64,000 bases of DNA from Terriglobus saanensis SP1PR4. Its GTDB lineage: Bacteria > Acidobacteriota > Terriglobia > Terriglobales > Acidobacteriaceae. The DNA is taken from NCBI RefSeq assembly GCF_000179915.2, contig NC_014963.1, positions 3,162,001 to 3,226,000 on the forward strand, in the 5' to 3' direction. The position numbers were made by a program, and so were the translations under genes. The notes under the pieces were generated by a model that saw only the letters and a list, made by a program, of their open reading frames with translations, had not been told where the DNA came from and searched no databases. How positions within the stretch are numbered: position 1 is the stretch's first letter; each line of letters opens with the position of its first letter. Positions 23,038 to 51,790 of this stretch are shown one piece after another.

Positions 23038-23075
23038 TGTCAGGACCCTGTCATCGGATTGTCAGGACACTTTCA
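23038..23075 (-). promoter_or_regulatory. 11-bp-repeat box upstream of the epimerase gene
   Basis: Read toward the epimerase gene, the half-sites are TGAAA, TGACA, TGACA and TGACA, each starting exactly 11 bp after the previous one (first bases at 23075, 23064, 23053 and 23042 on the minus strand). The box lies about 115 bp before the start codon. Its regular spacing places all half-sites on one DNA face. Confidence 0.7.
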
Positions 23076-23110
23076 GACAAATCTCGTGTGGGCGCGTTTT
23101 TCGGGGAAGA

Positions 23111-23842
23111 TTAGAGTTCTCTTGCAAGCACACAGATTTGGAACGGACGAAATGATGGAAAGGCACGAAGGATCTTCATCGCGCCCATCTTGAGCTTGTT
23201 ACCGCTTTTATCCTGGATCCAGTTGAAATAAGAATGTTGGAGACACCTTAGCCCCACGCTCTCGGCGATACTGCAAAGTTCCTGTCGCGTATATTCCCTG
23301 ACGTGTCCGGGATTAGTCGAGTAGAGCCGTAGTCGTTCATAAGGATTCTGACCAAACACCAATCGAACTCTCTTGCCAATCTCGGCGGCATTGGGAGTCG
23401 TGCAAATGAGAATTCCACGCTCGGTCAGTAGAGAACTGAGGGCAGCCAACACGAACTCCGGCGCTACGCACAAGTGCTCAATGACCTCTGAAAACACAAT
23501 CAGGTCGAAACGCTCGCAATCAGGCCAACTCAAGACGCTCTGCGAGTTCAGAAGGTCGAAGGTGATGTGAGGGACAGTGACCATTTCGCTTGTCTCACGA
23601 TGGCCTCCATCGTCGATCAATGGATCCAGACCCAGCGTGTGGACATTCCGGTAGAAGTTCAGGAGATGTGCGGTAAGCTCACTTCTTCCGATATCAAGCA
23701 CGCGTGCGGAAGCATCTGGAACCTGCTTTCGACACAATCTCAGAATATCGGCAAAGCGAGTTTTATGCGTCTCAAGATAATTGCGCCTGGATTGATCCCC
23801 ACAAGTATCCGCCTTCTCTTTTTCAATGAGTTGAGTCAGCAT
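23111..23842 (-). CDS. Class I SAM-dependent methyltransferase
   Basis: A 243-residue Rossmann methyltransferase. Motif I is present in slightly unusual form (ARVLDIGRSELTAHLL), followed by the acidic TLGLDPL, FDLIVFSEVIEHL (motif II) and LLTERGILICTTPN. Its place after the polymerase-like gene suggests methylation of a sugar in the exopolysaccharide or of its lipid-linked precursor. The start is uncertain: ATG 23842 is used, but a TTG at 23869 has a better AGGGGG site upstream. It is 56 bp downstream of the polymerase-like gene on the same strand. Confidence 0.82.
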   Translation of the reverse strand: MLTQLIEKEKADTCGDQSRRNYLETHKTRFADILRLCRKQVPDASARVLDIGRSELTAHLLNFYRNVHTLGLDPLIDDGGHRETSEMVTVPHITFDLLNSQSVLSWPDCERFDLIVFSEVIEHLCVAPEFVLAALSSLLTERGILICTTPNAAEIGKRVRLVFGQNPYERLRLYSTNPGHVREYTRQELCSIAESVGLRCLQHSYFNWIQDKSGNKLKMGAMKILRAFPSFRPFQICVLAREL

Positions 23843-23925
23843 ATGTCCGACATTCGTTCGATGAGACAAGCTTCCCCCTATCGTTATCTTGGATTATGAA
23901 GTCTACCCAGTCTTCGGACTGAATC

Positions 23926-25206
23926 TCACAGAGCTGACGAACTTGTGATACCCTGGCAAATTTCAGCAGCCCGATAGGAAAGGGTAGTGACTGGATGACC
24001 GTCCATCGTGTGTCCTCGCTCCAGCAGCAGACTGAACATAATGATTGCCCACAGTGGAAGCGAAAAATCGCATACTTCGGTGTCTGCAATTCCGCGTATC
24101 AGGACGAAAAGCAGCAAAGTGAGATAGAAAGTTCTCAAAGAGCCAGTGACGAATCTCCGAATCTGCAGATAGAAGCTGCCGTAAAGTCCCACCATCATGC
24201 AGACTCCCACCACTCCGTAGGAATAGAACTGCTGGAGTAGTTCGTTGTGTGCACTTCGAGCTTCGAATTCGCCGAAGGATGGAATCACTTTCCAGATGGA
24301 ATAGAAACCGTAACCAGCCCATGGTTGCTTTATCGCTTGATCCAGGACGACCGCCCAAATCGTGAGACGACCGGTAAGTGTCTCAGGACTATTACCAGCA
24401 TCTAAATAAATGCTGAAATAAGAGAATAAGAGGCTCGAAAATGCTATGGCAACGAGTATGACAATCGAAATAATGAGCAGTTTTGTTTTTCTGCTCATCG
24501 ATTTTTCCCTTAAAAGAAAGAAAGCTTCAGCCAACAAAAATCCGATAATTGTTGTTTTACTTAGGCTTCGGAGAAGGGTCACTCCAAGCAAGAGTGCCAG
24601 GATCCAAAACCTTGCTACTTTCTGTTGCATAAGATATTGAGCAAAGAAAAAAGCAAAGCCACACAAATAACCAATCTGGTTCGCCCCAAGCAGTTCATCA
24701 TCTCCAAGTCTCAGATCCGATTGTCCTGGCAGAAGCCATGCGATGATTGCGACGGCACATGCACCCCAGACATAGCCTTTCATCAGAGAGTGCATGAAGT
24801 CTCTCATAGGCTCCAAACGACAAAGCAAGACCACCACCGCCGCATCGGCAGCCATCGCACACCAATATGCAACAGCAGCAGACAGAGAAATTGTAGAGCT
24901 CCAGAACAGGCTGCAACAGGAAAAGGCAAGAAACAGCACTACCCATTGAATACTGGGAAGCTTCAACATGCTTCCGAACGTACGGTCTGCAGCTCCCACC
25001 GACTGGAAGGCAACGACAATCAGAAGCAAATAGTTCAGCGCGAAGCTGATCGCGGTTCCGACCTGCGGATCGGTTCCCAGAACCCGCACGGCAAGGAGCA
25101 TGATAAAGAGCCGAAATGAAAAGAAAAACCCGACCACAAAGGGCAGCCCCGTATCAACCAGCAATGCGGCGGGTTCTTCAACGTAATGGTTACTCTCTGC
25201 GCTCAT
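23926..25206 (-). CDS. O-antigen ligase/polymerase-like membrane protein (Wzy type)
   Basis: A 426-residue integral membrane protein with about 11-12 hydrophobic segments and a larger periplasmic loop around ILDAGNSPETLTGRLTIWAVVLDQAIKQPWAGYGFYSIW. The TGRLTIW...PWAGYGF pattern and a following ARSAHNELLQ are typical of the Wzy_C/O-antigen ligase family. It probably polymerises lipid-linked repeat units on the periplasmic side. It lies 38 bp downstream of a cytochrome c gene and upstream of a methyltransferase, all apparently one unit. Being a Wzy-type protein, it should need a Wzx flippase, which is not encoded in the window. Confidence 0.82.
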   Translation of the reverse strand: MSAESNHYVEEPAALLVDTGLPFVVGFFFSFRLFIMLLAVRVLGTDPQVGTAISFALNYLLLIVVAFQSVGAADRTFGSMLKLPSIQWVVLFLAFSCCSLFWSSTISLSAAVAYWCAMAADAAVVVLLCRLEPMRDFMHSLMKGYVWGACAVAIIAWLLPGQSDLRLGDDELLGANQIGYLCGFAFFFAQYLMQQKVARFWILALLLGVTLLRSLSKTTIIGFLLAEAFFLLREKSMSRKTKLLIISIVILVAIAFSSLLFSYFSIYLDAGNSPETLTGRLTIWAVVLDQAIKQPWAGYGFYSIWKVIPSFGEFEARSAHNELLQQFYSYGVVGVCMMVGLYGSFYLQIRRFVTGSLRTFYLTLLLFVLIRGIADTEVCDFSLPLWAIIMFSLLLERGHTMDGHPVTTLSYRAAEICQGITSSSAL

Positions 25207-25244
25207 AAATACTGCTGCCTCTTACGCACCTGACGCTCGTCGTT

Positions 25245-25715
25245 TCAATGGGTATATATCTCTGGAACGCCTTGGCTGCCTGCGGGAGGTAGGTGACGCA
25301 GAAAAACAACAATTGACCAGAGCTCGTCGTCACTCAAAGTCCCTTTGGAACCGGGCATTCCTGACGGACGGATTCCGTTGTCCAGGATCCACTTGAGTTG
25401 ACCGTCTGTATATCGCTGTACATCCTCCGAAGCTAACGAAGGAATTGGCGGTGAGATGTGGTCGGCAAACGGAATGCCTGTGTTCTGCCCATCCATGCCG
25501 TGGCATGCGATGCAGTAGTGGGAGAATGCTTCCTTGCCGTCGTCCCAATTTTCATGGGTATAGGGCAAGGGATTTTTTTGTTTCTTGTTCCCCACAAAAA
25601 CGTGATGCTTGGCAAAGGTGATAGTTTTAGTTTCGAGCTTACTCGGTGGATTGGCCTTGCATCCAGCCAATCCCACCATGCAGATTGCAGCGAACGCAGT
25701 CAGAGAATTGCGCAT
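25245..25715 (-). CDS. Mono-heme cytochrome c lipoprotein
   Basis: A 156-residue periplasmic cytochrome c. The N-terminus has a lipoprotein signal (CMVGLAGC), so it is probably anchored to a membrane. One heme site, CIACHGMDG, and a later GIRPSGMPGSKGTLSDDELW supply the His and Met axial ligands of a class I fold. The ATG at 25715 follows the stop codon of the CuA-type cupredoxin gene by two bases, so the two proteins are translationally coupled and probably exchange electrons. Finding it directly before a polysaccharide polymerase gene is unusual. Confidence 0.88.
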   Translation of the reverse strand: MRNSLTAFAAICMVGLAGCKANPPSKLETKTITFAKHHVFVGNKKQKNPLPYTHENWDDGKEAFSHYCIACHGMDGQNTGIPFADHISPPIPSLASEDVQRYTDGQLKWILDNGIRPSGMPGSKGTLSDDELWSIVVFLRHLPPAGSQGVPEIYTH

Positions 25716-25717
25716 AT

Positions 25718-26083
25718 CTAGTCCACGACGTGCAGCGTCAGGGCCATGCCGCCGTGACCGGAACCGCAAAAGACTGAGCAATGACCTACAAAGTCACCGG
25801 CCCTATCCGGGGTGAAGCGCAACTCCGCGGTGCCGCCTTTATCGATCTTCGCATTCAAATTTAGTTCTCTAAAGCGCAGTCCATGCGCTACATCCAAGCT
25901 CTTGATGGAAAGCACAACCGGCTGCCCCTTCTTCACGGTGATCTCGCCCGGTTCGTACGCAAAACGTTTAGCCGTGATTTCGATCCGTTTCGGTGCTTCC
26001 TGCGCACGAACTGCGTGGCTGGACAACACACCTGTGGCTACCATCGCACTGCATAGAACCAATAGCATGAACTTCGTTTTCAT
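25718..26083 (-). CDS. Periplasmic CuA-type cupredoxin (COX2-like soluble domain)
   Basis: A 121-residue exported copper protein. A signal peptide ends near HAVRAQ. The cupredoxin fold carries H67 (DVAHGL) and C102, C106, H110 and M113 in HCSVFCGSGHGGM. This spacing is that of the binuclear CuA centre of cytochrome oxidase subunit II, but the two membrane helices of a real subunit II are absent. The ATG at 26083 has GGAG five bases upstream. The gene starts a unit with a cytochrome c, the polymerase and a methyltransferase, behind an 11-bp-repeat box. A role in passing electrons to or from a periplasmic redox step is inference. Confidence 0.85.
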   Translation of the reverse strand: MKTKFMLLVLCSAMVATGVLSSHAVRAQEAPKRIEITAKRFAYEPGEITVKKGQPVVLSIKSLDVAHGLRFRELNLNAKIDKGGTAELRFTPDRAGDFVGHCSVFCGSGHGGMALTLHVVD

Positions 26084-26212
26084 GAACACTCCTTCTGAAT
26101 CTTTTCCCTGTAGGTTTCCGACAATCGATCTCGACTTGAACGACTATGGGCGTAATGACCCGAATCTGTAACTACCGGTCATACTCACAGTAGCCATTCG
26201 ATGGCCAGCGGT

Positions 26213-26250
26213 TGTCATGTCGTGGTTAGTCAATTGTCACGAGATTGTTT
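26213..26250 (-). promoter_or_regulatory. 11-bp-repeat box upstream of the cupredoxin unit
   Basis: Read toward the cupredoxin gene, the half-sites are AAACA, TGACA, TAACC and TGACA at exact 11-bp steps. It ends about 130 bp before the start codon. Over some 45 bp it is strikingly similar to the box at 51753-51790. The 243-bp gap around it (26086-26329) holds no other feature that I can support. Confidence 0.65.
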
Positions 26251-26329: not shown

Positions 26330-26785
26330 TCACCGTCCTCCATTACTGGCGCAAACGGCAATTTTCTCAGAGACACGATGCCAGGTTTCTGTTTTCCCAA
26401 AGATCGGAGCTCCAATATAGCCGCGGAGTTTCAGATCATTGCCCTCCACGGACATGGTGCCATGATAGGTTCTTCCGGATTTTGGATCGTAAAGTGCTCC
26501 GCCCGACGCATGGGTTGGGTCGGTGAGCGAAAAATGGCTACCTATCTCGAGGTTGCATAAAGCTCGATTTCTCTGTCCGGGATTTAGATTGTGAATATCG
26601 ACTGTGGCAGGTGCATGTGCACTAACAGAGATTATCTTCATGCAGACTTCAGTCCCGCAATATCCGATTCGCAGGACTGAACCCGTGGGTTCTCGCCAGT
26701 CACCCAAGAGGGTTGACTTCTGTGCCCTCAGTACGGTGGAACAGACCATCAATCCAACTAATAAAACAGCGGATTTGCATCGCAT
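26330..26785 (-). CDS. DUF2147-like secreted protein
   Basis: A 151-residue exported protein. A signal peptide (AVLLVGLMVCSTVLRAQ) is followed by a small beta-rich domain beginning LLGDWREPTGSVLRIGYCGTEVCMKIISV, the usual opening of DUF2147 proteins, and containing LTDPTHASGGALYDPKSGRTYHGTMSVEGNDLKLRGYIG. The function of the family is unknown. AAGGA lies before the ATG at 26785; the open frame extends further upstream without a ribosome site. It follows the WecG-type gene by 79 bp and appears to end the long export/assembly unit. Confidence 0.75.
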   Translation of the reverse strand: MRCKSAVLLVGLMVCSTVLRAQKSTLLGDWREPTGSVLRIGYCGTEVCMKIISVSAHAPATVDIHNLNPGQRNRALCNLEIGSHFSLTDPTHASGGALYDPKSGRTYHGTMSVEGNDLKLRGYIGAPIFGKTETWHRVSEKIAVCASNGGR

Positions 26786-26864
26786 ACAGCTTCCTTCTCT
26801 AAAAGATGAATTCGGCGCTTTATTTCTCAGACACACGAGCGCAGAGACAGTCAGCTTACATCCT

Positions 26865-27764
26865 CTACTTTTTCGTTTGACTGCTCATTGGAGCAGGCGC
26901 GGTTGGGGTTCTCGGATAGCGACGCAGTTTTAGCATCTGCAGCGTAATATTCCAGACAAATGCGGGATTATTGCTGAGATAGCGACGCCACAGCCTCTTA
27001 GGATCCTGCATCAATCGATGCAGCCACTGCAGACCAGCGCGCTTGATCCAAGGCGCACAATCGCGGACGCGACCCGTGTGATAGTCAAACGCTGCTCCTA
27101 CACCCACTAACAGGGGCACCTGGAGACGACCCACATATTGCGCCATGAATCGCTCCTGCTTTGGCGTGCTCAACCCTACCCATAGAATATGTGGTTTTGA
27201 GTCGCGCAACTGCGCCATGAGTGCGCCCTCCTCGTCTGTATTCAAGCTTCTAAAAGGAGGCGTAAAATTTCCGACAATTTGCAGACCTGGAAATCTCGTT
27301 TCTAAAACTTCTTTGAGTTCTTCCGCAACGCCGGGTTGTCCTCCGTACAGGAAGTGACGATAGCCCCGATCTAGGGAAAGTTGACACATCGCCGACATGA
27401 AATCAGGGCCAAAGACCCGGTCCATATCGGCAAACCCCTGCAGATGACCTACCCAAGACATAGGCATGCCATCCGGGGTATTGATAGCCGCGTGATTCAG
27501 GATCTCGCAGAATTCGGCGTCTTTCTGGGCCTCCATCACCCCATGGACACCGGTCACACAGATGTATCCAGGATGCCCTTCTGAAATCCATCGATCTGCC
27601 AGATCCACACCACTGCTCATGTTAATCGCCGACACTTTTACGCCGAGGACATCGGCATGTTCGTGGCTAAAGGCCGAAGTAGATGTGGTGCTCTCTTCGC
27701 CGCAGTAGCAAGAGGAGATTGCCGAGTCGTTTACTTCAGTTGGAGATCCAGAATGCTTCGTCAT
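26865..27764 (-). CDS. WecG/TagA/CpsF-family glycosyltransferase
   Basis: A 299-residue peripheral inner-membrane glycosyltransferase of family GT26, which adds a second sugar to a polyprenyl-pyrophosphate-linked monosaccharide. Family signatures are visible: INTPDGMPMSWVG, DRVFGPDFM, RHFLYGGQPGVAEELKEVL, ILWVGLSTPKQERFMAQY and LLVGVGAAFDYHTG. The N-terminal 35 residues are extra and rich in Ser, Cys and Glu. The start overlaps the end of the initiating sugar-transferase gene by four bases (ATGA), which fits consecutive action on the same lipid-linked intermediate. Confidence 0.92.
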   Translation of the reverse strand: MTKHSGSPTEVNDSAISSCYCGEESTTSTSAFSHEHADVLGVKVSAINMSSGVDLADRWISEGHPGYICVTGVHGVMEAQKDAEFCEILNHAAINTPDGMPMSWVGHLQGFADMDRVFGPDFMSAMCQLSLDRGYRHFLYGGQPGVAEELKEVLETRFPGLQIVGNFTPPFRSLNTDEEGALMAQLRDSKPHILWVGLSTPKQERFMAQYVGRLQVPLLVGVGAAFDYHTGRVRDCAPWIKRAGLQWLHRLMQDPKRLWRRYLSNNPAFVWNITLQMLKLRRYPRTPTAPAPMSSQTKK

Positions 27765-28921
27765 ACTCCTCCGCGCATTGCAAAGAACAGGGTGTGGATG
27801 AGAATTGCAAGATCCATATACAGGGTTCGACTCCTGATGTAAGAAAGGTCGTGATGTATGTTCTCGTGAATAGGGAACGCTCTGTCGCGGCTAAGTTGCC
27901 AGAGACCTGTGATCCCTGGCATTACCCGAAGTCGTTGCCGCTGGCGCGCGTTATAACTGCGCACGACGAAAGGCATCTCAGGGCGAGGTCCGACCAACGA
28001 CATCTCTCCCCGGAAGACATTGATGAGTTGAGGGAGTTCATCCAGGCTGGTCTGGCGCAGAATTCTGCCGATTTTCGTGATGCGTGGATCGCTAGATGTC
28101 TGTGGTGAGCGTTCATATCTCCGTGCTCCGGAAGACATCGAACGAAATTTGTACATTCGGAAGAGCTTCCCATTTTGGCCCACTCTTCTCTGCACAAAGA
28201 GCGCTGGACCTGGCGAACTTACGCAAATGAGCAGAGCAAACAAAATAAAAACAGGCAAAAGCAGCACCAGAAGGACAGAAGAGACAAGAAGATCGACCAA
28301 CCGCTTGCTGAAGACATAGTGACGGGGAGCGTATGTCGACTTTTCGTCAGCAAGAGCCCTCGTCCGTCTTGGCGCAACTGCACCTCCCATTTTGTCCGAT
28401 TCGTCTGCAACTATTTGCCCGATATCCAAGCTTCGATACGACACTCTCAGGATTATTCGCCGGAACAACTTGTTCTGGATTGCTAACAATGGAGGCATCA
28501 GAACGAAGGCCAAAACCATTGCGGAACGAGGAAGCTCCAGTCTCAGAAGAAAACTAGCGGGCACTATGACGAGAAGAGATTGTATCGACATCCTAACGGT
28601 AGCCGCCGTTTCATGGATCGGACTAAGGTTGTCGTATGCGGTATAAGAGCTTTTTCGTTGTAATAGCGTGGTGGCAAACAGAGCGGCTACACAGAGAACG
28701 CCGAGCTCGGATCCAAGCGGATATCTGACCGAATTGTTTCGATGGGAGAGTAGCAGAAACGCTACAAACGCCGTGCCGACACAGAGGAGAAAGTCAGCTA
28801 CAAACTTGGACACGACGAAACCTCGCAAGAATAGCCTGTTTGAAGTCGTCTGCCGCTGCTCGCAGGACTGTGCTTCTGTCTCTCGATATAGTTCCGAAAC
28901 GTAGGAATCAGATGTCGTCAT
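27761..28921 (-). CDS. Initiating polyprenyl-phosphate sugar transferase (WbaP/WcaJ-like, shortened)
   Basis: A 386-residue membrane enzyme that transfers a sugar phosphate to undecaprenyl phosphate, the first committed step of exopolysaccharide assembly. Four N-terminal hydrophobic segments are followed, after a short linker, by the catalytic domain: SKRLVDLLVSSVLLVLLLPVF (re-entrant helix), FVQRRVGQNGKLFRMYKFRSM, RITKIGRILRQTSLDELPQLINV, MSLVGPRPEMP and PGITGLWQL. The cytosolic CoA-binding-like domain normally between the helices and the catalytic part (about 130 residues in WbaP) appears almost wholly missing. The ATG at 28921 has GGAG eight bases upstream. Confidence 0.9.
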   Translation of the reverse strand: MTTSDSYVSELYRETEAQSCEQRQTTSNRLFLRGFVVSKFVADFLLCVGTAFVAFLLLSHRNNSVRYPLGSELGVLCVAALFATTLLQRKSSYTAYDNLSPIHETAATVRMSIQSLLVIVPASFLLRLELPRSAMVLAFVLMPPLLAIQNKLFRRIILRVSYRSLDIGQIVADESDKMGGAVAPRRTRALADEKSTYAPRHYVFSKRLVDLLVSSVLLVLLLPVFILFALLICVSSPGPALFVQRRVGQNGKLFRMYKFRSMSSGARRYERSPQTSSDPRITKIGRILRQTSLDELPQLINVFRGEMSLVGPRPEMPFVVRSYNARQRQRLRVMPGITGLWQLSRDRAFPIHENIHHDLSYIRSRTLYMDLAILIHTLFFAMRGGV

Positions 28922-28964
28922 GCTCATCTCTCCGTCTCTTCTACAAGTAGTCCGGTTGCTTCTT

Positions 28965-30155
28965 TCATAACGAATGCTCTTTGGGTGTGGGTGCCTGAAT
29001 CGAAGCGGTATAGTGAGTACCTCTCAAGCGGTACGCTGAAGGCAAAAGCTCGCGATAGAGGTTTACATATTGAGTTCCCAGCACTTCAGACGAAAACTGT
29101 GGCAGAGACACAGGAGAGGGTGGGGGATCCTGAAGACTTTCAAGGATGGCCTGTGAGAACTTCTCCTCTGCGTCGGAGCTCAAAGCAATAAACCGACAGT
29201 GCTGTTCGTCGATCTCCCGAAAGGCAGGGATATCCGAACAGACAACACGGCAACCTGCGAGCAACGCTTCGGCAACAGGTAGCCCAAAGCCCTCTGTCTC
29301 CGAAGGCGCCGCGAGCGCCTCGCAACGGGTATAGCACCACTGCAGTGCCGGTTCAGAGAGCCCTTGCAGAAACACTATTCTTTTACTCAACCCTAAGTCA
29401 GATATGAGCCGAAAGATACGAGGTGTCTCTGGCCCCGTGATGCCGATGATTACCAGCTTCATCTCTGGATGAACTAATTTTTCACGAAGTAGCCGATGAA
29501 GGACCCGGATGAGGAGAGGGACGTTCTTGTTTTTACGATGCTGCGCAACAACGAGCAGGAAGGGCTCACCCTGCCAGTCGGGTATGGGAGATTGCTTTGC
29601 GCAAACTAACTCTGGCTCCACACAGTTGTAAATCCGGAGCGCCTTCCCCCACGTGCGCCGTGGCGCGTAAAGCCGCATGCGGAGCTTCGTAGTGTCAGAC
29701 ACACAGGCGATTGCGTCAACGCTTCGCAGACATTGCTGCAGAATCATGCGGTTGAAAAATACCTTGGGAAAACCGAAGTTTCCCGGAATCTCATATGGAT
29801 AAAGATCATGCAGTGTCAACACGATGGGACATGAGATCGCGGACGCGTTCACTGGAACCGGATACGAAAGATGCACGACATCAGGCTGAATCTGCGCAAC
29901 TAACTCCGGCAGTCGTCGATAATACCAGAGGTTTCGACTCAAGAGGCTTTGCTCCATGTCGGCAACATACGTCGTGACTCGGTGCATCGCATTCAAGCCT
30001 GCTGTTTGTGCCAGCTCACGCTGCCACGGAGCAAGCACCAGATGCACCGCTAAGATCTCCTTTCTTTGCAGAAGGCAGCGCACGAGATTGAATGCGTGCC
30101 GTTGCAGGCCCGAGATGTTAGACGAGAACTGTGCCGCAGTGATAAGGACTTTCAC
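28965..30155 (-). CDS. Family 4 glycosyltransferase
   Basis: A 396-residue cytosolic GT-B glycosyltransferase that extends the lipid-linked repeat unit. The N-terminal half has SSNISGLQRHAFNLVRCLL and PDVVHLSYPVP; the C-terminal half has EPFLLVVAQHRKNKNVPLLIRVLHRL and the donor-binding SETEGFGLPVAEALLAGCRVVCSDIPAFREI with its EX7E motif. It starts at GTG 30155 behind an AGGGGA site. A gap of 145 bp separates it from the chain-length regulator gene; I see no 11-bp-repeat box there, so read-through from upstream is likely. Confidence 0.9.
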   Translation of the reverse strand: MKVLITAAQFSSNISGLQRHAFNLVRCLLQRKEILAVHLVLAPWQRELAQTAGLNAMHRVTTYVADMEQSLLSRNLWYYRRLPELVAQIQPDVVHLSYPVPVNASAISCPIVLTLHDLYPYEIPGNFGFPKVFFNRMILQQCLRSVDAIACVSDTTKLRMRLYAPRRTWGKALRIYNCVEPELVCAKQSPIPDWQGEPFLLVVAQHRKNKNVPLLIRVLHRLLREKLVHPEMKLVIIGITGPETPRIFRLISDLGLSKRIVFLQGLSEPALQWCYTRCEALAAPSETEGFGLPVAEALLAGCRVVCSDIPAFREIDEQHCRFIALSSDAEEKFSQAILESLQDPPPSPVSLPQFSSEVLGTQYVNLYRELLPSAYRLRGTHYTASIQAPTPKEHSL

Positions 30156-33317: not shown

Positions 33318-33322
33318 CAGAC

Positions 33323-36316: not shown

Positions 36317-36408
36317 ATGGTCACACCAGAAAGTGGGGCGCTCTGCCTTGGCAGTCAGCTCTTCCTTATTGACCCTAGAGAGCAAGCACATCCGCGGTGT
36401 CATGGGTG

Positions 36409-36435
36409 AGTCAGTGATTTGTCATTCTTTTGTTG
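36409..36435 (-). promoter_or_regulatory. 11-bp-repeat box upstream of the export/assembly unit
   Basis: Read toward the SLBB export gene, the half-sites are CAACA, TGACA and TGACT at exact 11-bp steps (plus-strand positions 36431-36435, 36420-36424 and 36409-36413). It would serve the longest unit, from the export gene through the Wzi, Wzz, GT4, sugar-transferase, WecG and DUF2147 genes. Confidence 0.6.
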
Positions 36436-36485: not shown

Positions 36486-36523
36486 TGACAATCAATTGAC
36501 AAAGGTCAGACGAACGGGAGACA
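36486..36523 (+). promoter_or_regulatory. 11-bp-repeat box upstream of the barrel protein/cytochrome/ribBA unit
   Basis: Half-sites TGACA (36486), TGACA (36497), AGACG (36508) and AGACA (36519) are at exact 11-bp steps, 33 bp before the first possible start codon. Sequence identity with the box at 40270-40307 continues through the spacers, over about 44 bp with only six or so differences. Confidence 0.75.
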
Positions 36524-36555
36524 CGCAGTAAGTGGCCTATCGCTAACTTGCAGAT

Positions 36556-37605: not shown

Positions 37606-37607
37606 AG

Positions 37608-40214: not shown

Positions 40215-40269
40215 GTCGTTACCTCCGCCGAACGGAAATCGTGGCACAGTAGTTACGCTAACGATGCGG

Positions 40270-40307
40270 TGTCTTCTGATCGTCTGCCCTTTGTCAATTC
40301 ATTGTCA
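40270..40307 (-). promoter_or_regulatory. 11-bp-repeat box upstream of the PhyH gene
   Basis: Read toward the PhyH gene, the half-sites are TGACA, TGACA, AGACG and AGACA at exact 11-bp steps, ending 56 bp before the start codon. Both half-sites and spacers nearly match the box at 36486-36523. Confidence 0.75.
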
Positions 40308-40372: not shown

Positions 40373-40399
40373 TGACAAGTTCCTTACCTTGAAATGACA
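40373..40399 (+). promoter_or_regulatory. 11-bp-repeat box upstream of the HprK-like kinase gene
   Basis: Half-sites TGACA (40373), TTACC (40384) and TGACA (40395) lie at exact 11-bp steps, 80 bp before the kinase start codon. The degenerate middle half-site resembles the TAACC at the same place in the box at 26213-26250. Confidence 0.55.
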
Positions 40400-40478
40400 A
40401 TCCTTGTCGTACGGCTCGTTAGACTCGGCGTAACTTATCAAATCTCAAAAGGTACGAAGAGCGGAACGAAAGGCGATT

Positions 40479-43625: not shown

Positions 43626-43657
43626 AACTCAGCGTAGCTGCACTCCACGGAGACAGT

Positions 43658-43695
43658 TGTCAGTTTCTTGTGAGACGAATGTCATCCAAGTGTTG
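43658..43695 (-). promoter_or_regulatory. 11-bp-repeat box upstream of the GT87-propeller gene
   Basis: Read toward the GT87 gene, the half-sites are CAACA, TGACA, TCACA and TGACA at exact 11-bp steps. The box overlaps the 3' end of the UGT coding sequence, which makes its regularity more notable because the DNA is also coding. Confidence 0.65.
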
Positions 43696-44997: not shown

Positions 44998-46244
44998 TAC
45001 TGCAGTACCGGAGAACAGACCGTCCGCCCTCCCAGACGCACTTCGCCTGCACCGAGAACCTCTTCCGCCCGGCGTAATAACTCTTTGACCGGCGCGCGTA
45101 GCCAACGCACCACCCCCTCAACCAAGAGAGGCTCTAGTCCTTCTTTCACCTGAGATGGAAGTCTTTTCCAAACTTCCTCCGAAGCCAGTTGCACGCGTCC
45201 CGCGATCATTACGAACTCTATCTCTATCATCGAAAGTGTCTGTAATCTGCTTGCTGCGTTGTGGCCCGTATCCCGAATAGCGACCAGATCGCCCGGCCCT
45301 AAGATCCGGATCTTTCCTTCGCCATCTTTCAATCGAAGTATGGTTGCGGCGGCCTCCGTCACCATGCGATAGGCACTCTCCGGCGTGATGCTGCAAGACC
45401 TGATCGCAAACCTGACCTCATCGAGCAAGTCCCCTGCTGCGGTCAGAGGTGAATCATTCCCGAGAGCGACGCTTTCTATTTTGCCCAGCAAATTCATATC
45501 CGGAAGCTTGCCGAAGAGGAACATGTTGGAAGAGGGACAGACAATGAGCGATGCCCCTCTCTCCTGCACCAATGCGACACCTTCGTGATCCATAGCCAGG
45601 CCATGAACAAGCACGGTATGCGCATCCAACAATCCAAGCCGATAAAGTTCGAATACTTCATCACGAGCTTGATCATCCACTCCTTCACACGCATGCAGGA
45701 TGAAGACGCTTCCTTCTGGGGTCGCACAACGGGCCGCACGAAGATCGCCTCCCAAAGCGAGAGAGTGTCCCCATCCAAAGTGCCGCACTACCTTGATGGG
45801 AAATTCTCTCTTTTGCAGCTCCGACCAAAACTTGTCATGGTGGCATGCTGTCGTGACGCCGCAAAGAAGATTTCGTATCCCTCCCCACCACAGGCGGACA
45901 TCTTTAGGAACGGACTTATGCTTTGCGATTACCTCGGGAAACCGAACGTGTATGTCTTCGCCCCATTCGATGTAGTTCTGGTACAGCGGATTTCCAAGCC
46001 TTGGGTAAAGGGCGAACTGCAGATGATCGTGCGCATTTACCAAGCCAGGAAGCAACAGGAAGCCGCTCAGGTCGATCTCTGTTTCTCCAGATACCAGTGG
46101 CAGTGACATGGTTCCATCACGCACTACCTGTGTCAGATGCCCACCCGCGATGTGTATGGAAGCTCGAAATGTCTCCTGTGGTCCGATGGCACAACGAGCC
46201 CCATGCAGAGATACTTCGTCACTCTCGTGCCAAGAGTCACGCAT
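44997..46244 (-). CDS. Amidohydrolase-superfamily metal-dependent hydrolase
   Basis: A 415-residue cytosolic enzyme of the ATZ/TRZ-chlorohydrolase branch of the amidohydrolase superfamily. Metal-binding and catalytic residues are visible: the HxH-type NAHDHLQF, ILHACEG, VHGLAMDHEG and the Asp in LGNDSPLTAAG. An N- and C-terminal beta-sandwich surrounds the barrel, with GFLLLPGLVNAHDH at the start and PGDLVAIRD near the end. The reaction is probably a deamination or hydrolysis of a C-N bond; the substrate is unknown. ATG 46244 overlaps the upstream methyltransferase end by eight bases; in-frame starts further up would overlap more. Confidence 0.87.
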   Translation of the reverse strand: MRDSWHESDEVSLHGARCAIGPQETFRASIHIAGGHLTQVVRDGTMSLPLVSGETEIDLSGFLLLPGLVNAHDHLQFALYPRLGNPLYQNYIEWGEDIHVRFPEVIAKHKSVPKDVRLWWGGIRNLLCGVTTACHHDKFWSELQKREFPIKVVRHFGWGHSLALGGDLRAARCATPEGSVFILHACEGVDDQARDEVFELYRLGLLDAHTVLVHGLAMDHEGVALVQERGASLIVCPSSNMFLFGKLPDMNLLGKIESVALGNDSPLTAAGDLLDEVRFAIRSCSITPESAYRMVTEAAATILRLKDGEGKIRILGPGDLVAIRDTGHNAASRLQTLSMIEIEFVMIAGRVQLASEEVWKRLPSQVKEGLEPLLVEGVVRWLRAPVKELLRRAEEVLGAGEVRLGGRTVCSPVLQ

Positions 46245-47220
46245 GTTTCCGCGCCACATAAATCCGAAAGCGGGACGGTTCTCGCCGGCGGCGTAGTCTT
46301 GCGATCCACGGACGCATGAACCACTTGAAGCCATACCAGGGAGAGTGCACTGTCCAACGAATGGAAAACTCTTCCTCCAACCTGCGCAACCGCTCGTCGG
46401 TCAGATATTCAAGACTTTTCACCGAATTGGATGCCGTATCAAAGCGCTGAAGAAATATGGCCTGGCGTTCTGCGACCATTTGCCTTCCACTTTCCTCCCG
46501 CGCATACCATGGGGTGTCACTGATGACGACCATTCCTCCGCGTTTGACGCAACGCATGGCCTCGCGGAGAGTCGCAACATAATCTTCGGAGTAATGAAAG
46601 GAGGCATTGAAGATAACTACGTCGAACTGCTCACTCTGAAATGGCAGACGCACCAGTTCTGCCTGGAATCGTGGCAGAGGATTTGGAAGACGTTTTTGAT
46701 AGGTCACAGCGGCCGCGAGGCCATCGTACTTGTTCGTGAGCAGGTCCACCGCGACAGGTTGATACCCGGCAAGAGCGAGTCGAAAGCTCATCCAGCAGTT
46801 GCCTGCGCCAAGGTCCAGAACCTTCTCATATCCAAGGTTGGGCTTCAGCACACGTTTCATCAGAAAGTCGTAACTCCGCGCTCTGATCTCCCACTGCCTG
46901 CTGTTTTTGCCAGTTAAGTCCTGATACGGAAGTCTTAGATAGTACTCTTCACTCTGGCTACCTCGGCCCTCTGCTGCACGGATTCGCTCGTAATCCTGGA
47001 TAAATTGGGCGTAGTACTGAATTCTCTCTTCGGGCAAAGCATGTACGATTCCGTTGCTAGTCTGCATGCGGAATGCGCACCTGGGACAATTCAATCCATC
47101 GACATCGGTCACGCAAGAGGGACACTGGAGGCTCACACCGCAATGTGCATCAGCGTCCCCGCGGCCCGTCTCGTCGACGCGGGCCTGAATATCTCCGTAA
47201 GCCATCGGGCGCGCCTGCAT
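46237..47220 (-). CDS. Class I SAM methyltransferase with N-terminal zinc-ribbon-like segment
   Basis: A 327-residue methyltransferase. The first 60 residues carry LQCPSCVTDVDGLNCPRCAFRM, two CPxC pairs that look like a zinc ribbon. The Rossmann domain then shows EKVLDLGAGNCWMSFRLALAGYQPVAVDL (motif I and acidic loop), FDVVIFNASFHYSED and VKRGGMVVISDTPWY. This layout is found in Ubi/MenG-like small-molecule methyltransferases. The start codon directly abuts the stop of the radical SAM gene, so expression is coupled. The methylated substrate is probably shared with the adjacent radical SAM, amidohydrolase and glycosyltransferase proteins. Confidence 0.85.
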   Translation of the reverse strand: MQARPMAYGDIQARVDETGRGDADAHCGVSLQCPSCVTDVDGLNCPRCAFRMQTSNGIVHALPEERIQYYAQFIQDYERIRAAEGRGSQSEEYYLRLPYQDLTGKNSRQWEIRARSYDFLMKRVLKPNLGYEKVLDLGAGNCWMSFRLALAGYQPVAVDLLTNKYDGLAAAVTYQKRLPNPLPRFQAELVRLPFQSEQFDVVIFNASFHYSEDYVATLREAMRCVKRGGMVVISDTPWYAREESGRQMVAERQAIFLQRFDTASNSVKSLEYLTDERLRRLEEEFSIRWTVHSPWYGFKWFMRPWIARLRRRREPSRFRIYVARKHA

Positions 47221-48714
47221 CTATGCTTTCCTGATTGAAATCAGCTGCTCGACGGGCACAATCACTGGAGGAATGAAGCCTTCCGCGGTTTCAGAAAACG
47301 AGAGGGCTTCCGCATCCCGGCTTATTGGTTCTAACTGATCCACCGTTCGCCATAAGGCTGCGACCCTGGCGTCCGTCTCTCCGGATGAATCGGCCACGCG
47401 CCACGAATCAACCTCGGCATGCAGAGCTTCGCGGACAGCACGATAAAAGTCTGTCGTATAGGCGGCTCTGAACATGATGCAGAGGTCGTCGCTGTCGGCC
47501 CAGTTACGCTTGGCGCCAAGTTGCATCTGGACGCGCTCATAGAAGGCTGTCCCCGGCAGTGGATACGAAAAGGAGATTCCAATGTCGTCAGGTCGTAACT
47601 TCCGAACCAAAGCGATCGTCTGCTGAAGCTCGACCCAGGTTTCACCCGGATAGCCGAACTGTAGAAAGAAGCATGCGCGAATGCCCGCCGCTTTCAGCCG
47701 CTCACGAGAAGCCACTATCGCATCGAGAGTAATGTCCTTGTCCATCGCGTCTAGGATGGTTTGAGCACCAGACTCTACGCCCATCCAAACCTCTGCACAT
47801 CCTGCAGTCTTCAAATGCAGTACAGTTTCTTCACCCATCAGATCGGCGCGCGACTGCACTTTGAACGGCACCGCTGCATTTCGTTTCGTAACCTCTTCTG
47901 CAAACTCTTTTACCCAGTGGCGATTCAGCGCGAAGATATCGTCACCGAACCAGATGTGTTCTACCCCTGCGCGCTTGAGCAACTCCATCTCTTCCGCGAC
48001 CGCTGAAGCTGCGCGAAGATGAAAGCGATTGCCGGAGATCGGTTTTGCACACCAGTTGCAGCGAAACGGACAGCCGCGACTGGCGACCATGTTCGTTGAA
48101 AAATAGCCATGTGCGCCAAGCCATGCTGCGCGATATGGTTCCAAGTCGATCAGATCACGAGCGGGGAGAGAGAGATGTGCCCAGGCAGGGTTCTTTGCTA
48201 ATCGTTGCGGGCTACTCACCATCTGCCCCTGCTCATCAAGTTTTATGAGTCCATCCTGCTCTGATAAATGGGTCCCCGTAAGGATCGAAGAGCATAGTTC
48301 TACAAGGACGTTTTCTGCCTCTCCACAAAGGACATAGTCGAATCCGTTCTCGAGAAATAATTCTGGGCTATCTGTGGAATCGGAACCGTGAATGATGACG
48401 ATAGCGCCGATGTCCCTGGAAGCTTTCGCAATCTCCCAGGCTACTTCCCTCATTCGCGTCAGACACATCTTTGAGAGAAAGTTGAAGTCATCCTCATATA
48501 CGGCAACGATCTTTGGCCGGTGCTGCAGCAGCATCGCCAGGAACTTCTCAGCGGGAGGTTCAAGCATCGCATCGAAGACGGCGACTGAGATGCCGTGATC
48601 GCGCAGTGCCGTGGCAGCGTAGAGCGTACCGATCGGCGTATATGGCTGCATCTTGCGCAGCTGCTTTGCGTCGTACGGTAGGTGATACGAATGAGTGAGT
48701 AGAACATCAGCCAA
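47221..48714 (-). CDS. B12-binding-domain-type radical SAM enzyme
   Basis: A 497-residue radical SAM protein. The iron-sulfur motif CPFRCNWC (CX3CX2C) follows SRG, as is usual in the class. The N-terminal 170 residues have the Rossmann layout of cobalamin-binding domains (TPIGTLYAATALRDHGISVAVFDA, IVIIHGSDSTDSPE), but the classical DxHxxG base-off motif is not evident. EHIWFGDDIFALN and VWMGVESGAQTILDAMDKD are typical of B12-type radical SAM proteins such as BchE- and PhpK-like enzymes. It is the first gene of the coupled quartet. The reaction (methylation, cyclisation or rearrangement) cannot be told from sequence. Confidence 0.87.
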   Translation of the reverse strand: MADVLLTHSYHLPYDAKQLRKMQPYTPIGTLYAATALRDHGISVAVFDAMLEPPAEKFLAMLLQHRPKIVAVYEDDFNFLSKMCLTRMREVAWEIAKASRDIGAIVIIHGSDSTDSPELFLENGFDYVLCGEAENVLVELCSSILTGTHLSEQDGLIKLDEQGQMVSSPQRLAKNPAWAHLSLPARDLIDLEPYRAAWLGAHGYFSTNMVASRGCPFRCNWCAKPISGNRFHLRAASAVAEEMELLKRAGVEHIWFGDDIFALNRHWVKEFAEEVTKRNAAVPFKVQSRADLMGEETVLHLKTAGCAEVWMGVESGAQTILDAMDKDITLDAIVASRERLKAAGIRACFFLQFGYPGETWVELQQTIALVRKLRPDDIGISFSYPLPGTAFYERVQMQLGAKRNWADSDDLCIMFRAAYTTDFYRAVREALHAEVDSWRVADSSGETDARVAALWRTVDQLEPISRDAEALSFSETAEGFIPPVIVPVEQLISIRKA

Positions 48715-48830
48715 GGTTCACCTCGGTCGTAGCCCATCGGCCATATTGTGACTGGGTATTCCACGGAACTAAAGACAATGAGGACTTCCGTTTCATGATG
48801 CCCAGCGTAGCCTTTCGCAAGCCACCCACT

Positions 48831-48857
48831 TGTCTCAAGAATGTCAACTCAATGTCA
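48831..48857 (-). promoter_or_regulatory. 11-bp-repeat box upstream of the radical SAM quartet
   Basis: Read toward the radical SAM gene, the half-sites are TGACA, TGACA and AGACA at exact 11-bp steps, ending 117 bp before its start codon. It lies immediately past the stop of the upstream ribA gene. Confidence 0.65.
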
Positions 48858-48861
48858 TCCT

Positions 48862-49518
48862 TTACCGAATGAGATCTGGCCGGGTAAAGTGCTCTACTTT
48901 ATTCGGCGCTAAGTCGGAAATATGGCCCATCTTCTCGCGTTTAACGGCAAGATAGTACTCGGAATAGGGGCTTCCTGGCACATCGGCACTCAAACGCTCG
49001 ATCACTTCAATTCCAGCGGCCGCGACTGCGTCGATTTTCTCTGGATTGTTCGTCATCAACCGTATGGAGGGGATTTTGAGAAACCGGAGAATCTCGACTG
49101 GTAGTCGATAGTCACGCAGGTCAGCGGCATGTCCCAACTGCAAATTGGCTTCGATTGTGTCGAGACCTCGCTCCTGGAGTGCATAGGCGCGCAGCTTTTC
49201 CATAAGACCGATCCCACGCCCCTCCTGATGCTCATAGAGCAGTATCCCGGTGCCTTCTTCGGCAATGACGCGCAACGCCAAGTGAAGCTGATCGTGGCAG
49301 TCGCAGCGCAGCGAGTGAAATACGTCGCCAGTGGTGCATTGCGAATGAATGCGAACTACAGGTGGTGAGTTATGAATGTCGCCAAGCACGAGGGCCAAAG
49401 CGCTCTCCTGGTATCCATTCCCTGTTTCGCTTCCCTGGTGAACGCCCTCAAACCCTAGCAGGCGAAAATTGGCCCAGCGTGTTGGAAGACTGACTTCAGC
49501 GATTTGTCTCAATGTCAT
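48862..49518 (-). CDS. ribA: GTP cyclohydrolase II
   Basis: A 218-residue stand-alone RibA, which opens GTP to give the pyrimidine precursor of riboflavin. All family features are present: zinc cysteines in SQCTTGDVFHSLRCDC, LYEHQEGRGIGLMEKLRAYALQERGLDTIEANLQLGHAADLRDY and IRLMTNNPEKIDA. The open frame extends to 49731 but the family start is matched by ATG 49518; the ribosome site is weak. It is third in a unit with a nucleotidyltransferase-like and a methyltransferase gene, 79 bp after the latter. It can supply the activity that the degenerate half of RibBA at 38 kb seems to lack. Confidence 0.92.
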   Translation of the reverse strand: MTLRQIAEVSLPTRWANFRLLGFEGVHQGSETGNGYQESALALVLGDIHNSPPVVRIHSQCTTGDVFHSLRCDCHDQLHLALRVIAEEGTGILLYEHQEGRGIGLMEKLRAYALQERGLDTIEANLQLGHAADLRDYRLPVEILRFLKIPSIRLMTNNPEKIDAVAAAGIEVIERLSADVPGSPYSEYYLAVKREKMGHISDLAPNKVEHFTRPDLIR

Positions 49519-49597
49519 CAACGTCGTTAGTCCCTGAAATATGTACGGCCCGTGTTGAAGAAGAGTTGTTGTTTCACTCTTCGTGGAGTTTTGAATC

Positions 49598-50410
49598 TTA
49601 TTGTTCTGTGCGGCGAAATTGGTACAGCACGTGATCTCCCAGCATCGCCAGAGGATGGGAAAGAACACGGTCCCAGCGCTCCATCGCTGCGAGCAGTCGT
49701 GGTTGTTTCGAAATCCACGGCTCTGCCGCACTGGGCGGCACGGTCACGCCGATGCCGATTCTCTGTTCGAGGGCAAACCAGGGAGAAAATGCGCGGACTA
49801 TCTCCGAGCGACGGTGATAGACAACCTGAAACTCGCGTTTTGCCAATCTGGCCGATACAGCGCCGCGCTTCCAACGGCGAAGCGCCAGATGCGGCCGTCC
49901 GCGAAGACTCTCTACAACCATTTCTCCGGGGCAACAAGTACCGAAAAATACCAGCATCGCGGCCGAACCAGGCTTCAAAAGGCGGGCCAACCCACACGCG
50001 ACGGGCTCAAGATCGGCGACGCAGTTGAGTGGCGCGAAGTTGGAAAAAGCTCCATCGAACGATGGTCGGCCCAACGATAGATAGCGCGTGGCAAAGTCTT
50101 TCATCTCTTCTCCCGCGGCAATCTCCGCGGAGGAACCAAATGGCCGTAGCTTTTGCTTTGCCAGTTTCACCATCGTTGGTGAGGGGTCGGTAAGCAGCAC
50201 TTCGAATCCACGCTGCGCGAGAAAGCATGCATCTTCGCCCGTGCCGCCACCGATCTCCAGGACGCGCCCGCCCGCAGGAAACTGTTGAAGCAACGCTGTA
50301 CGTACCGCGCGTCGCTGTGCGCTCACACTCTCCCATACGCCAAAACGCGAGTCGAACGCTGGTGCAATCGCGTCAAAGGCAAAAGCCGCTGGGCGTAAAG
50401 AAGAAGTCAT
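49598..50410 (-). CDS. Class I SAM-dependent methyltransferase
   Basis: A 270-residue methyltransferase beginning FAFDAIAPAFDSRFGVWESVSAQRRAVRTALL, typical of small-molecule methyltransferases of the UbiE type. Motif I is GGRVLEIGGGTGEDACFLAQRGFEVLLTDPS; later FDGAFSNFAPLNCVADL and LKPGSAAMLVFFG. The C-terminal third is basic and may bind the substrate. Its ATG overlaps the end of the nucleotidyltransferase-like gene by four bases (ATGA). The substrate is unknown. Confidence 0.87.
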   Translation of the reverse strand: MTSSLRPAAFAFDAIAPAFDSRFGVWESVSAQRRAVRTALLQQFPAGGRVLEIGGGTGEDACFLAQRGFEVLLTDPSPTMVKLAKQKLRPFGSSAEIAAGEEMKDFATRYLSLGRPSFDGAFSNFAPLNCVADLEPVACGLARLLKPGSAAMLVFFGTCCPGEMVVESLRGRPHLALRRWKRGAVSARLAKREFQVVYHRRSEIVRAFSPWFALEQRIGIGVTVPPSAAEPWISKQPRLLAAMERWDRVLSHPLAMLGDHVLYQFRRTEQ

Positions 50411-51717
50411 ATAGGAAGCCGATCCAAATGCCGCTGCCAGCGATACGACTCGACAGCATAACGAAAACCCTCCACAGCGTGAAAGCGCAGGCGGGAAAGA
50501 ATGAAGCGGGTTTGCACACGATACCGCGCAATGCGAGTCGAAATCGTTTCGTGCGATAGAGAACGGATCACAATCGGTGGTAGCTTCGACGGAAGCAGCG
50601 ATTTCTTAATCGGACGCCTACCCGAAACACCCGCTGTTTCGAGCTCCCTCTGCAGTAAGAGGTAAAGCTTGGAGCCCGGATGCTTTCCGAAAACAGTTCG
50701 GCGGCCATATAGATCTACCCAAAGCAGAGCCGAGGGAGGAAGGGCTCCCACAGTCCAATCCATCAGCATCTCGGGAGCGAAATCACCCATAATGTTAGTG
50801 ATCAAATAAATTACCACTCCAATTCCCAAGGAGGCCCTTGGGTCGCGCTCCGCCGTAGCGCGCAAATCTCGCCAGAACCTATCGTCGTCGTAACGCGCGA
50901 GTACATGGCGGTAGAACTCGAGAAGGTGTGCTGTACGGGAAAACTCACTGCAAACATCCTTGAAGGCATGCAAGCCCTGGCCCAGAAACAGATCGATAGG
51001 CGACAGTACAGGCATGGTCAGGCCGCATATCTCTCGAGGAACGATGCGGGCCAATCGCGAAGTTTGGCTAGAGGTCTCGGTTTCCAGATGCAACTCCACA
51101 GCACGGTCGGGGAGATCCTTGTAAAAATCTTTTGTGGAGACGTGCGGCGTCTCGTTGAGCTTGAACTCCCAACTCTTGCCGCTGATCGCGTACAAGCGAT
51201 AGCCCCTCCTCTCAAGAACCCGGCGAGCTTCGGGAACGCTTCGCTCGGCGATGAGGTAATCAAGATCAAATTGATGCCGCAGTTCGGGACGAGGCACCGA
51301 AATCGGACAGAGCGATACGCCCTTCATGACGGCGTAGGAAAGACCGGCCTGCTGAAACTCTCGCTGGAGGGCAATCGACTCCTCCAGCATGCCCTGCGTC
51401 CGTTTCTTGTTGTCGTCCATGTTCTGTTGCAAGCGGTCGAGAACGGGTTGCGGAAGCGTGTCGCGCAGCCCCAATTCCTTGAACCGCTCGAGCAGATAAA
51501 GGGTAAGACCGCTGACGTCGAGCCAATGTAGCAATCTCTGCCATTCTCTGCTGGAAAGATGGAGCAGCTGTCCGACTTGATCGGGAACGGGAGAGGAAAA
51601 GCTGAGTAAGATGGCCTCATGTATCTTCTGCTCGCGACTCAAGGGCTTCGATACGTCACCGTTCTTCAGGCGGCGTAGCAAAGAGCGGGTGCGAATTTGT
51701 ACCGAATCCAGGGCCAT
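50407..51717 (-). CDS. Nucleotidyltransferase-fold protein (NTP_transf_5-like)
   Basis: A 436-residue protein with the layout of the nucleotidyltransferase family PF14907: a helical start (SFSSPVPDQVGQLLHLSSREWQRLLHWLD, LLERFKELGL), then GLSYAVMKGVSLCPISVPRPELRHQFDLDYLIAERSVPEARRVLERRGYRL, containing the Asp-x-Asp (DLD) expected to bind metal. Such proteins occur with HprK-like kinases in polysaccharide loci and in some lasso-peptide clusters; their reaction is mostly unproven. Here the kinase-like gene is 9 kb away but under the same type of box. It heads a unit with a methyltransferase and ribA. Confidence 0.75.
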   Translation of the reverse strand: MALDSVQIRTRSLLRRLKNGDVSKPLSREQKIHEAILLSFSSPVPDQVGQLLHLSSREWQRLLHWLDVSGLTLYLLERFKELGLRDTLPQPVLDRLQQNMDDNKKRTQGMLEESIALQREFQQAGLSYAVMKGVSLCPISVPRPELRHQFDLDYLIAERSVPEARRVLERRGYRLYAISGKSWEFKLNETPHVSTKDFYKDLPDRAVELHLETETSSQTSRLARIVPREICGLTMPVLSPIDLFLGQGLHAFKDVCSEFSRTAHLLEFYRHVLARYDDDRFWRDLRATAERDPRASLGIGVVIYLITNIMGDFAPEMLMDWTVGALPPSALLWVDLYGRRTVFGKHPGSKLYLLLQRELETAGVSGRRPIKKSLLPSKLPPIVIRSLSHETISTRIARYRVQTRFILSRLRFHAVEGFRYAVESYRWQRHLDRLPI

Positions 51718-51752
51718 GCTGTCGTGAGACTAATGACCCCGACGAATAGGGT

Positions 51753-51790
51753 TGTCATCTCGTGGTCAGGTAATTGTCACGCCTTTGTTG
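51753..51790 (-). promoter_or_regulatory. 11-bp-repeat box upstream of the nucleotidyltransferase/methyltransferase/ribA unit
   Basis: Read toward the gene, the half-sites are CAACA, TGACA, TGACC and TGACA at exact 11-bp steps, ending 36 bp before the start codon. It marks the right-hand edge of the box-controlled locus. The remaining gap up to recG at 51949 shows nothing else I can name. Confidence 0.7.

Follow-up and report, generated by a model that had tools for sequence, protein, structure and literature searches.

Boxes and genes of the polysaccharide locus

The window analysed here is a 64,000-nt stretch of the genome of Terriglobus saanensis SP1PR4 (NC_014963.1), and it contains a 29-kb locus in which a short repeated DNA element precedes each gene unit. 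This element, referred to below as the box, consists of three or four half-sites of the form TGACA that follow each other at 11-bp steps. Pfam and NCBIfam assign to the locus genes of polysaccharide export and assembly (Wza with SLBB, Wzz, Wzi, Wzy_C, WecG, Bac_transf, GT4, GT87, UDPGT and an epimerase), redox and cofactor genes (cupredoxin, cytochromes c, RibBA, a second GTP cyclohydrolase II and a B12-radical SAM protein) and other genes (methyltransferases, an amidohydrolase, a PhyH dioxygenase, an HprK-like protein and NTP_transf_5). An earlier, sequence-only reading of this DNA had divided the locus by strand changes and gaps into nine units, each headed by one box; this division holds, and all nine boxes were found where they had been placed, one of them needing extended coordinates. 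In every case the gene that follows has TGACA on its coding strand, as had been noted, and a predicted -10 element lies downstream of the box.

The first three boxes are on the minus strand. Box 1 (23038..23075; TGAAA, TGACA, TGACA, TGACA at 11-bp steps) heads an NAD-dependent epimerase gene (21890-22987), with its predicted -10, TAAAGT, at 23012..23017. Box 2 (26213..26250; AAACA, TGACA, TAACC, TGACA), followed by a predicted -10 TACTGT at 26187..26192, heads a cupredoxin, cytochrome c, Wzy and methyltransferase unit (23111-26089). Box 3 (CAACA, TGACA, TGACT, TGACA) heads the Wza-Wzi-Wzz-glycosyltransferase-WecG-DUF2147 unit (26330-36403), and its predicted -10, TAGGGT, is at 36372..36377; this box had been given as 36409-36435 and is present there, but is better read as 36398..36435. 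The longest open reading frame of the Wza gene (33323-36403) begins at 36403, within box 3, and for this reason the ATG at 36316 is the likelier start.

Box 4 (36486..36523, plus strand; TGACA, TGACA, AGACG, AGACA) heads 36556-39212, comprising a barrel-like gene (36556-37605), a small cytochrome-like gene and RibBA; its predicted -10, TAACTT, is at 36544..36549. Box 5 (40270..40307, minus strand) has the half-sites TGACA, TGACA, AGACG, AGACA and heads the PhyH dioxygenase gene (39276-40247). Here a possible -10 TACTGT (40246..40251) starts at +23 from the fourth half-site, and an alternative one, TAGCGT (40255-40260), at +25 from the third, offsets being counted from the half-site start. Box 6 (40373..40399, plus strand; TGACA, TTACC, TGACA), with a predicted -10 TAGACT at 40420..40425, heads an HprK-like gene (40479-41498). 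The remaining boxes are again on the minus strand: box 7 (43658..43695; CAACA, TGACA, TCACA, TGACA) heads the GT87 gene (41514-43625) and has a predicted -10 TACGCT at +26 (43631..43636); box 8 (48831..48857; TGACA, TGACA, AGACA), also with a predicted -10 TACGCT at +26 (48804..48809), heads a unit of B12-radical SAM, methyltransferase, amidohydrolase and UDP-glycosyltransferase genes (43660-48714); and box 9 (51753..51790; CAACA, TGACA, TGACC, TGACA) heads the NTP_transf_5, methyltransferase and GTP cyclohydrolase II unit (48862-51717), its predicted -10 TAGTCT lying at 51727..51732. Weak half-sites with two of five bases off, such as CAACA, AAACA, TTACC and AGACG, are common at outer or middle positions, and every box holds a three-half-site register with at most two mismatches.

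The boxes are genuine and exceed what chance would give. Searched with the triple pattern TGACA-N6-TGACA-N6-TGACA at up to two mismatches, the window yields nine box clusters, whereas 300 dinucleotide shuffles average 0.1 and never exceed 2. The same limit applied to the whole genome (5,095,226 bases) gives 27 registers, which by hand count are 22 distinct places, and nine of these lie in the 29-kb locus, that is, in 0.6% of the genome. An equal frequency of boxes over the genome, named beforehand as an outcome that would speak against a regulon, is thus not seen. For the other such outcome, transcription starts upstream of the boxes, prediction points the opposite way, the predicted -10 elements being downstream of the boxes. 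Relaxing the limit to three mismatches gives 77 matches in the genome versus 28 for the reversed pattern, which served as control; within the window the sole extra place at this limit is intragenic (27445-27471), in agreement with the earlier statement that genes outside the range have no box before them.

The box and a predicted -10 element as one promoter

Sequence alignment indicates that the boxes are parts of promoters. The aligned set comprises 71 boxes anchored on the last TGACA, namely the nine boxes of the window, three other places of the T. saanensis genome and related loci, some of them outside polysaccharide loci; one weaker overlapping duplicate was removed from an initial 72, and boxes too close to the end of a locus were skipped. 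The strongest conserved downstream feature is TAnnnT from +25 of the last TGACA start (T in 49, A in 49 and T in 55 of the 71 boxes). The full TAnnnT is found at +25 in 43 boxes and at +26 in 12 (together 55/71), while other offsets average 0.5/71. A hold-out set of 20 other boxes from 14 genomes, two of which (G159 and G203) also contributed to the first set, has TAnnnT at +25 in 12 boxes and at +26 in three (15/20), with an average of 0.1/20 elsewhere. Three of the five hold-out boxes lacking a -10 at these positions (L115, L117 and L128) precede response regulator (RR) genes in reverse orientation; the other two are L112 and L124. Within the window eight of the nine boxes have their -10 at +25 or +26, the PhyH box having it at +23.

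Two other explanations of the boxes can be weighed against this alignment. Since the boxes are short and related loci share descent, they might be a product of chance or derive from duplicated promoter DNA of common origin; however, chance is refuted by the shuffles and reversed controls, and conservation outside the box and the -10 is nearly nil across the 71 promoters, leaving this explanation a negligible probability. The array might otherwise be a sigma-factor element made of repeated -35 hexamers (TTGACA), since the -35 consensus has TGACA at its core and a -10 follows downstream. Yet the box is not a TTGACA hexamer, because the base preceding the last TGACA is T in just 2 of the 71 boxes; moreover, the gap of 20-21 nt between the last half-site and the -10 is too long compared with the 17 nt of a standard -35/-10 pair, half-sites recur three or four times, one DNA turn apart, and the promoters of RR genes described below bear them in reverse. 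The sigma-factor explanation was rejected as very improbable.

The gene headed by box 4 (36556-37605) is conserved and box-led in several genera, and a search of Pfam and NCBIfam gave zero matches to it. Its AlphaFold model has a mean pLDDT of 51 and about 16 strands in a barrel-like arrangement, a low-confidence model too weak for a fold search. Between the predicted -10 and the ATG there are 6 nt, and in L066 and L077 it is separated from an ATG by 6-7 nt; on this ground a leaderless transcript is suggested.

Boxes in related genomes

A family-wide scan of 200 genomes at up to one mismatch recovered 411 box matches versus 17 matches of the reversed pattern. At least one match is present in 122 of the 200 genomes, and the matches are clustered. 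Clusters of several boxes were chosen by eye among the matches listed, giving 20 stretches from 13 genomes that were taken for their boxes alone, some of them being adjacent pieces of one locus. Homologs of genes of the window locus occur in 15 of these stretches (9/13 genomes), where boxes precede unk349, PhyH, HprK, GT87, radical SAM, NTP5, Wza and other genes. A box stands before 27 of 44 homologs of unit-heading genes versus 2 of 51 other genes (RibBA, 1/1, omitted).

A second set was retrieved via the radical SAM protein and comprises the best 80 of 546 relatives; its genomes may overlap the 200-genome set. Boxes are present in 21 of the 26 closest loci, all acidobacterial by title, and 42 of the 57 boxes have a -10 at +24 to +27. 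None of the other 54 loci contains a box; about 13 of these are acidobacterial by title (one of them Acidobacteriaceae) and the rest belong to other phyla. The reversed control has no match in any of the 80 loci. Among the 26 closest loci, homologs of unit-heading genes are preceded by a box in 28 of 61 cases versus 1 of 63 for other genes (p = 8e-10; RibBA, 0/1, omitted).

A class-wide scan of 200 genomes for the box plus -10 at up to two mismatches, with sums made by hand, gave 113 matches (control, 1) in 41 genomes of the family and 46 matches (control, 2) in the 159 remaining genomes. Given the latter matches, the system thins out beyond the family without ending there.

A candidate two-component regulator

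One extra genomic box is located 75 bp upstream of an RR gene, C1:2536953-2537669, which is some 650 kb away from the locus. The encoded protein consists of an N-terminal receiver (PF00072, E=1.5e-28) and a C-terminal winged helix (Trans_reg_C, PF00486, E=2.6e-26; L003:5951-6670), and by these domains it is classified as a member of the OmpR/PhoB family. The adjoining gene (C1:2535139-2536950) encodes a histidine kinase with HAMP, HATPase_c and weak CHASE4/dCache_3 matches in Pfam. A kinase homolog adjoins 29 of 30 orthologs of the RR gene, these being the best locus per genome in 30 genomes, T. saanensis included, fetched by protein alone; the RR and the adjacent kinase would thus be partners.

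Several observations connect this RR with the boxes. In the 20 stretches taken for boxes alone, the box clusters contain or adjoin genes for nine close homologs (215-364 bits, the weakest truncated at the edge of its stretch). Conversely, in the ortholog set fetched by protein, a TGACA pair with at most one mismatch lies within 250 bp upstream of 26 of the 30 RR genes, compared with 10 pair matches in the 101 kb elsewhere, and only 1 of the 14 other OmpR-type RRs of T. saanensis has an upstream box pair. The recognition helix (YPTTRTVDNQILKLRQKL) is near-invariant in the 30 orthologs and different in the 14 control RRs. In the 200 genomes of the family, with presence of the RR set at a best E of at most 1e-70, a cut-off picked after viewing the spread, boxes occur in 98 of 107 genomes with an ortholog versus 24 of 93 without (p = 7.5e-23, uncorrected for relatedness). 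Restricting the comparison to genomes at least 90% complete leaves boxes in 77/84 and 17/66, respectively. The link is also found inside the 18 mixed genera (89 genomes), in which none of 20,000 permutations gives a difference as large as that observed, although genus g73 goes the opposite way.

The boxes might instead be bound by another protein, be it one of the 14 remaining OmpR-type RRs or some one-component regulator, with the RR only co-regulated. The box of the RR gene would suit a target as well as a self-regulator, and a second RR gene, C1:3440951, is boxed too. However, RR genes and box numbers go together both between and inside genera, the RR genes lie in or beside box clusters, and their own box is turned the other way from the target boxes, with TGTCA on the RR coding strand in 27 of the 30 pair matches. 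These features make a different regulator unlikely.

A number of observations weigh against the RR as regulator of the boxes. Boxes persist in the 24 of 93 genomes without an ortholog at the 1e-70 cut-off; five of these have at least three matches, four of them being less than 90% complete and one (G089) 95% complete. Nine of the 107 genomes with the RR have no box. The RR C1:3440951, preceded by a box, is unrelated. Paralogs of the RR with about 53-59% identity also lie beside boxes in other genera (L072, L073, L078, L115, L117 and L128), so that two or more regulators may use the box; these paralogs may represent a paralogous regulator with the same box. The RR group as a whole comprises subgroups of about 60-80% and 53-60% identity. 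The genes of the locus, or the boxes, are absent from 4 of the 13 box-cluster genomes and from 5 of the 26 close radical-SAM loci. As to single genes, the cupredoxin head is boxed in 0/5 of the loci fetched by radical SAM (4/8 in the box-fetched stretches), the radical SAM gene is boxed in only 7, counted over all 26 loci, and Wza heads are boxed in 3/5, without a -10 in the searched stretch, which ends near the over-long start. Finally, no box was found in 20 stretches around Wzi homologs (18 from relatives and two from T. saanensis). These homologs, the best with 45% identity, lie in other capsule loci, and Wzi was rejected as a bait for the same locus; the absence implies that the box is tied to the present locus type and not to capsules generally.

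Two side observations concern these additional regulators. The box before C1:3440951 (C1:3441695-3441721; TTACA, TGACA, TTACA) is on the coding strand of this OmpR-type RR gene, and a regulatory cascade is possible. Kelch, ferritin-like or cytochrome genes occur near the paralogs in some cases.

Taken with these points, the sequence evidence makes it very probable that the RR C1:2536953-2537669 regulates the nine units through the boxes as operator parts of their promoters. A single regulator of OmpR/PhoB type for the whole locus, encoded outside the window, had been proposed from the boxes; both parts of the proposal are upheld, the first as the most likely reading, with a strong candidate now at hand elsewhere in the genome.

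Predicted targets beyond the locus

The boxes had also been taken to mark the limits of the regulon, and this was not borne out. The composite of box and -10 has 18 matches in the T. saanensis genome at up to three mismatches and none for the reversed control. Two of the best matches precede paralogous TIGR03118 surface-protein genes far from the locus (L002 6162-7802 and L005 7158-8906), a TonB-dependent receptor gene has a box and -10 upstream that are one mismatch off, and the RR gene has its own box. A third TIGR03118 gene stands behind a box in another genus. The L002 and L005 proteins carry a putative C-terminal anchoring domain, 'lipo-invert'.

In relatives, the products of box-led genes include Kelch or delta-60 beta-propellers, ferritin-like proteins and sugar O-methyltransferases, as well as homologs of the barrel-like gene product; two of ten such genes scanned in one protein-family search had no match. 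The cytochrome c and cupredoxin genes of the window (25245-26089 and 37608-37931) are inside box-led units and have homologs in box loci of several genera. RibBA (37959-39212) and the second GTP cyclohydrolase II (48862-49731) share the polysaccharide locus with the B12-radical SAM protein and methyltransferases, a grouping that hints at a small molecule derived from GTP or flavin.

Relation to known systems

PhoB and its Pho box, known from E. coli and others, share with the present system a DNA-binding domain of the OmpR/PhoB family, a TGTCA/TGACA half-site and tandem direct repeats at one-turn spacing. In Pho boxes it is TGTCA that occupies the coding strand adjoining the -10, and in phoA the last TGTCA begins 16 nt before it. 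The boxes might accordingly be Pho boxes in reverse orientation, since the half-site read on the other strand is identical (TGTCA every 11 bp), and PhoB is among the best PDB matches of the RR DNA-binding domain. Here, however, TGACA and not TGTCA is on the coding strand at all nine boxes of the window, half-sites number three or four, and the last one starts 25 nt before the -10. The RR scores 194.5 bits versus a PhoB cut-off of 296.2 (TIGR02154) and 145.2 versus 471 (PRK10161), and among the 10 of 14 other RRs scanned C1:2685900 scores higher, at 224.2, still below the cut-off. The targets are polysaccharide and surface-protein genes; no pst, phoU or phosphatase gene is among the annotated box-led genes, which cover a small part of the 411 matches. 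PhoB was rejected as the regulator on the basis of these scores, and a phosphate regulon is distinctly improbable. In one respect the layouts agree, as the Pho box is described as standing in for the -35 near a -10 (PMC4971064).

Both box orientations have a precedent in Salmonella PhoP, whose box, with the half-site (T/G)GTTTA, is reported to point either way, its position and direction being linked to the -10; flipping it in two direct-orientation promoters abolished expression (PMC3335776). In the present case the target boxes observed all point the same way, opposite to the box of the regulator gene. CenR of Rhodobacter sphaeroides is a precedent for a direct-repeat regulon of envelope genes under an OmpR-family regulator. 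As described, its box, TGA-N8-TGA with 10 bp between half-site starts, lies less than 100 bp upstream, sites of activated genes being upstream of the -35; CenR is a predicted activator of 42 of 59 units and has an essential cell-division regulon (PMC9275681).

The recognition helix of the RR is very similar to that of VbrR (PDB 7e1b), 15 of 21 residues being identical from YN to QKL. VbrR Arg190, aligned to an arginine of the RR, is reported to be essential for DNA binding, and the VbrR half-sites are given as TTCTAAT/TTCATCG (PMC10157535). VbrR differs from the RR in genes and host. Among solved structures MtrA (PDB 2gwr) is the best full-length match, at 169 bits, and MtrA also gives the best NCBIfam score, 198.9 bits; this is below the cut-off of 300, and identification of the RR as MtrA was rejected, the likeness being one of sequence score. 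Exopolysaccharide regulation by PrsK/PrsR (XrtA/PEP-CTERM) involves an NtrC-type regulator at sigma-54 promoters. The candidate RR is of OmpR type and the -10 of TAnnnT type, and regulation of the PrsK/PrsR kind was set aside on these two features, no search for an exosortase having been made.

Proposed mechanism and box orientation

The box, the fixed -10, their conservation, the co-occurrence with the RR, the synteny and the box before the RR gene are established computationally; for binding, phosphorylation, activation rather than repression, signal and product, we infer the following course. The histidine kinase would phosphorylate the RR upon an extracytoplasmic signal, and RR dimers would bind head-to-tail along the array of three or four TGACA half-sites spaced by one DNA turn. 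Taking the -10 at -12, a four-site array would span about -70 to -33, its last half-site overlapping the -35 region. RNA polymerase would then be recruited to the TAnnnT -10, 20-21 nt past the last half-site, at promoters without a consensus -35; an activator of class II type fits head-to-tail dimers in such a position. All nine units would rise jointly and yield a polysaccharide coat and redox-type companion proteins, and the RR probably regulates itself via the two-half-site, opposite-orientation box before its own gene.

The contrast in orientation, TGACA on the coding strand at targets and the reverse (TGTCA) at the RR gene, may matter functionally. Alignment of 26 RR promoters reveals a conserved element, approximately cAGAATAGA, near +53 to +63, about 40 nt past the pair. 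If this element is the -10, the RR box pair is centred near -61. A divergent promoter sharing the RR box was rejected, as inspection by eye of the 26 RR promoters found no conserved TAnnnT at the mirrored distance. Given the opposite orientations, the RR would have to touch RNA polymerase at one type of promoter via a surface other than the PhoB-sigma contact. It is a tentative proposal, somewhat more doubtful than probable, that box orientation is a functional code, with the RR pair near -61 versus the last target pair near -41 and a different RNA polymerase surface used at one of them, and that the RR and its boxes act throughout the family as an acidobacterial master system governing a matrix made up of polysaccharide, redox proteins and beta-propellers that are anchored.

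Significance

Soil Acidobacteria are abundant, and several have been described as exopolysaccharide makers. Subscription papers aside, no regulator or operator of acidobacterial exopolysaccharide, and no acidobacterial regulator with the present box, was found in the titles and abstract openings of the open-access literature, among the matches listed, nor is such a system described in passages of PMC7074687. The two-component regulon is considered new but of a kind already known, its promoter layout being unusual.

With its opposite orientations at targets and regulator, the system lends itself naturally to testing how activators of OmpR type make contact with RNA polymerase. For the family, the outcome is a candidate two-component system together with a promoter grammar precise enough to predict its target genes, and a list of genes, several of them of unknown function, that seemingly belong to one coat-building programme.

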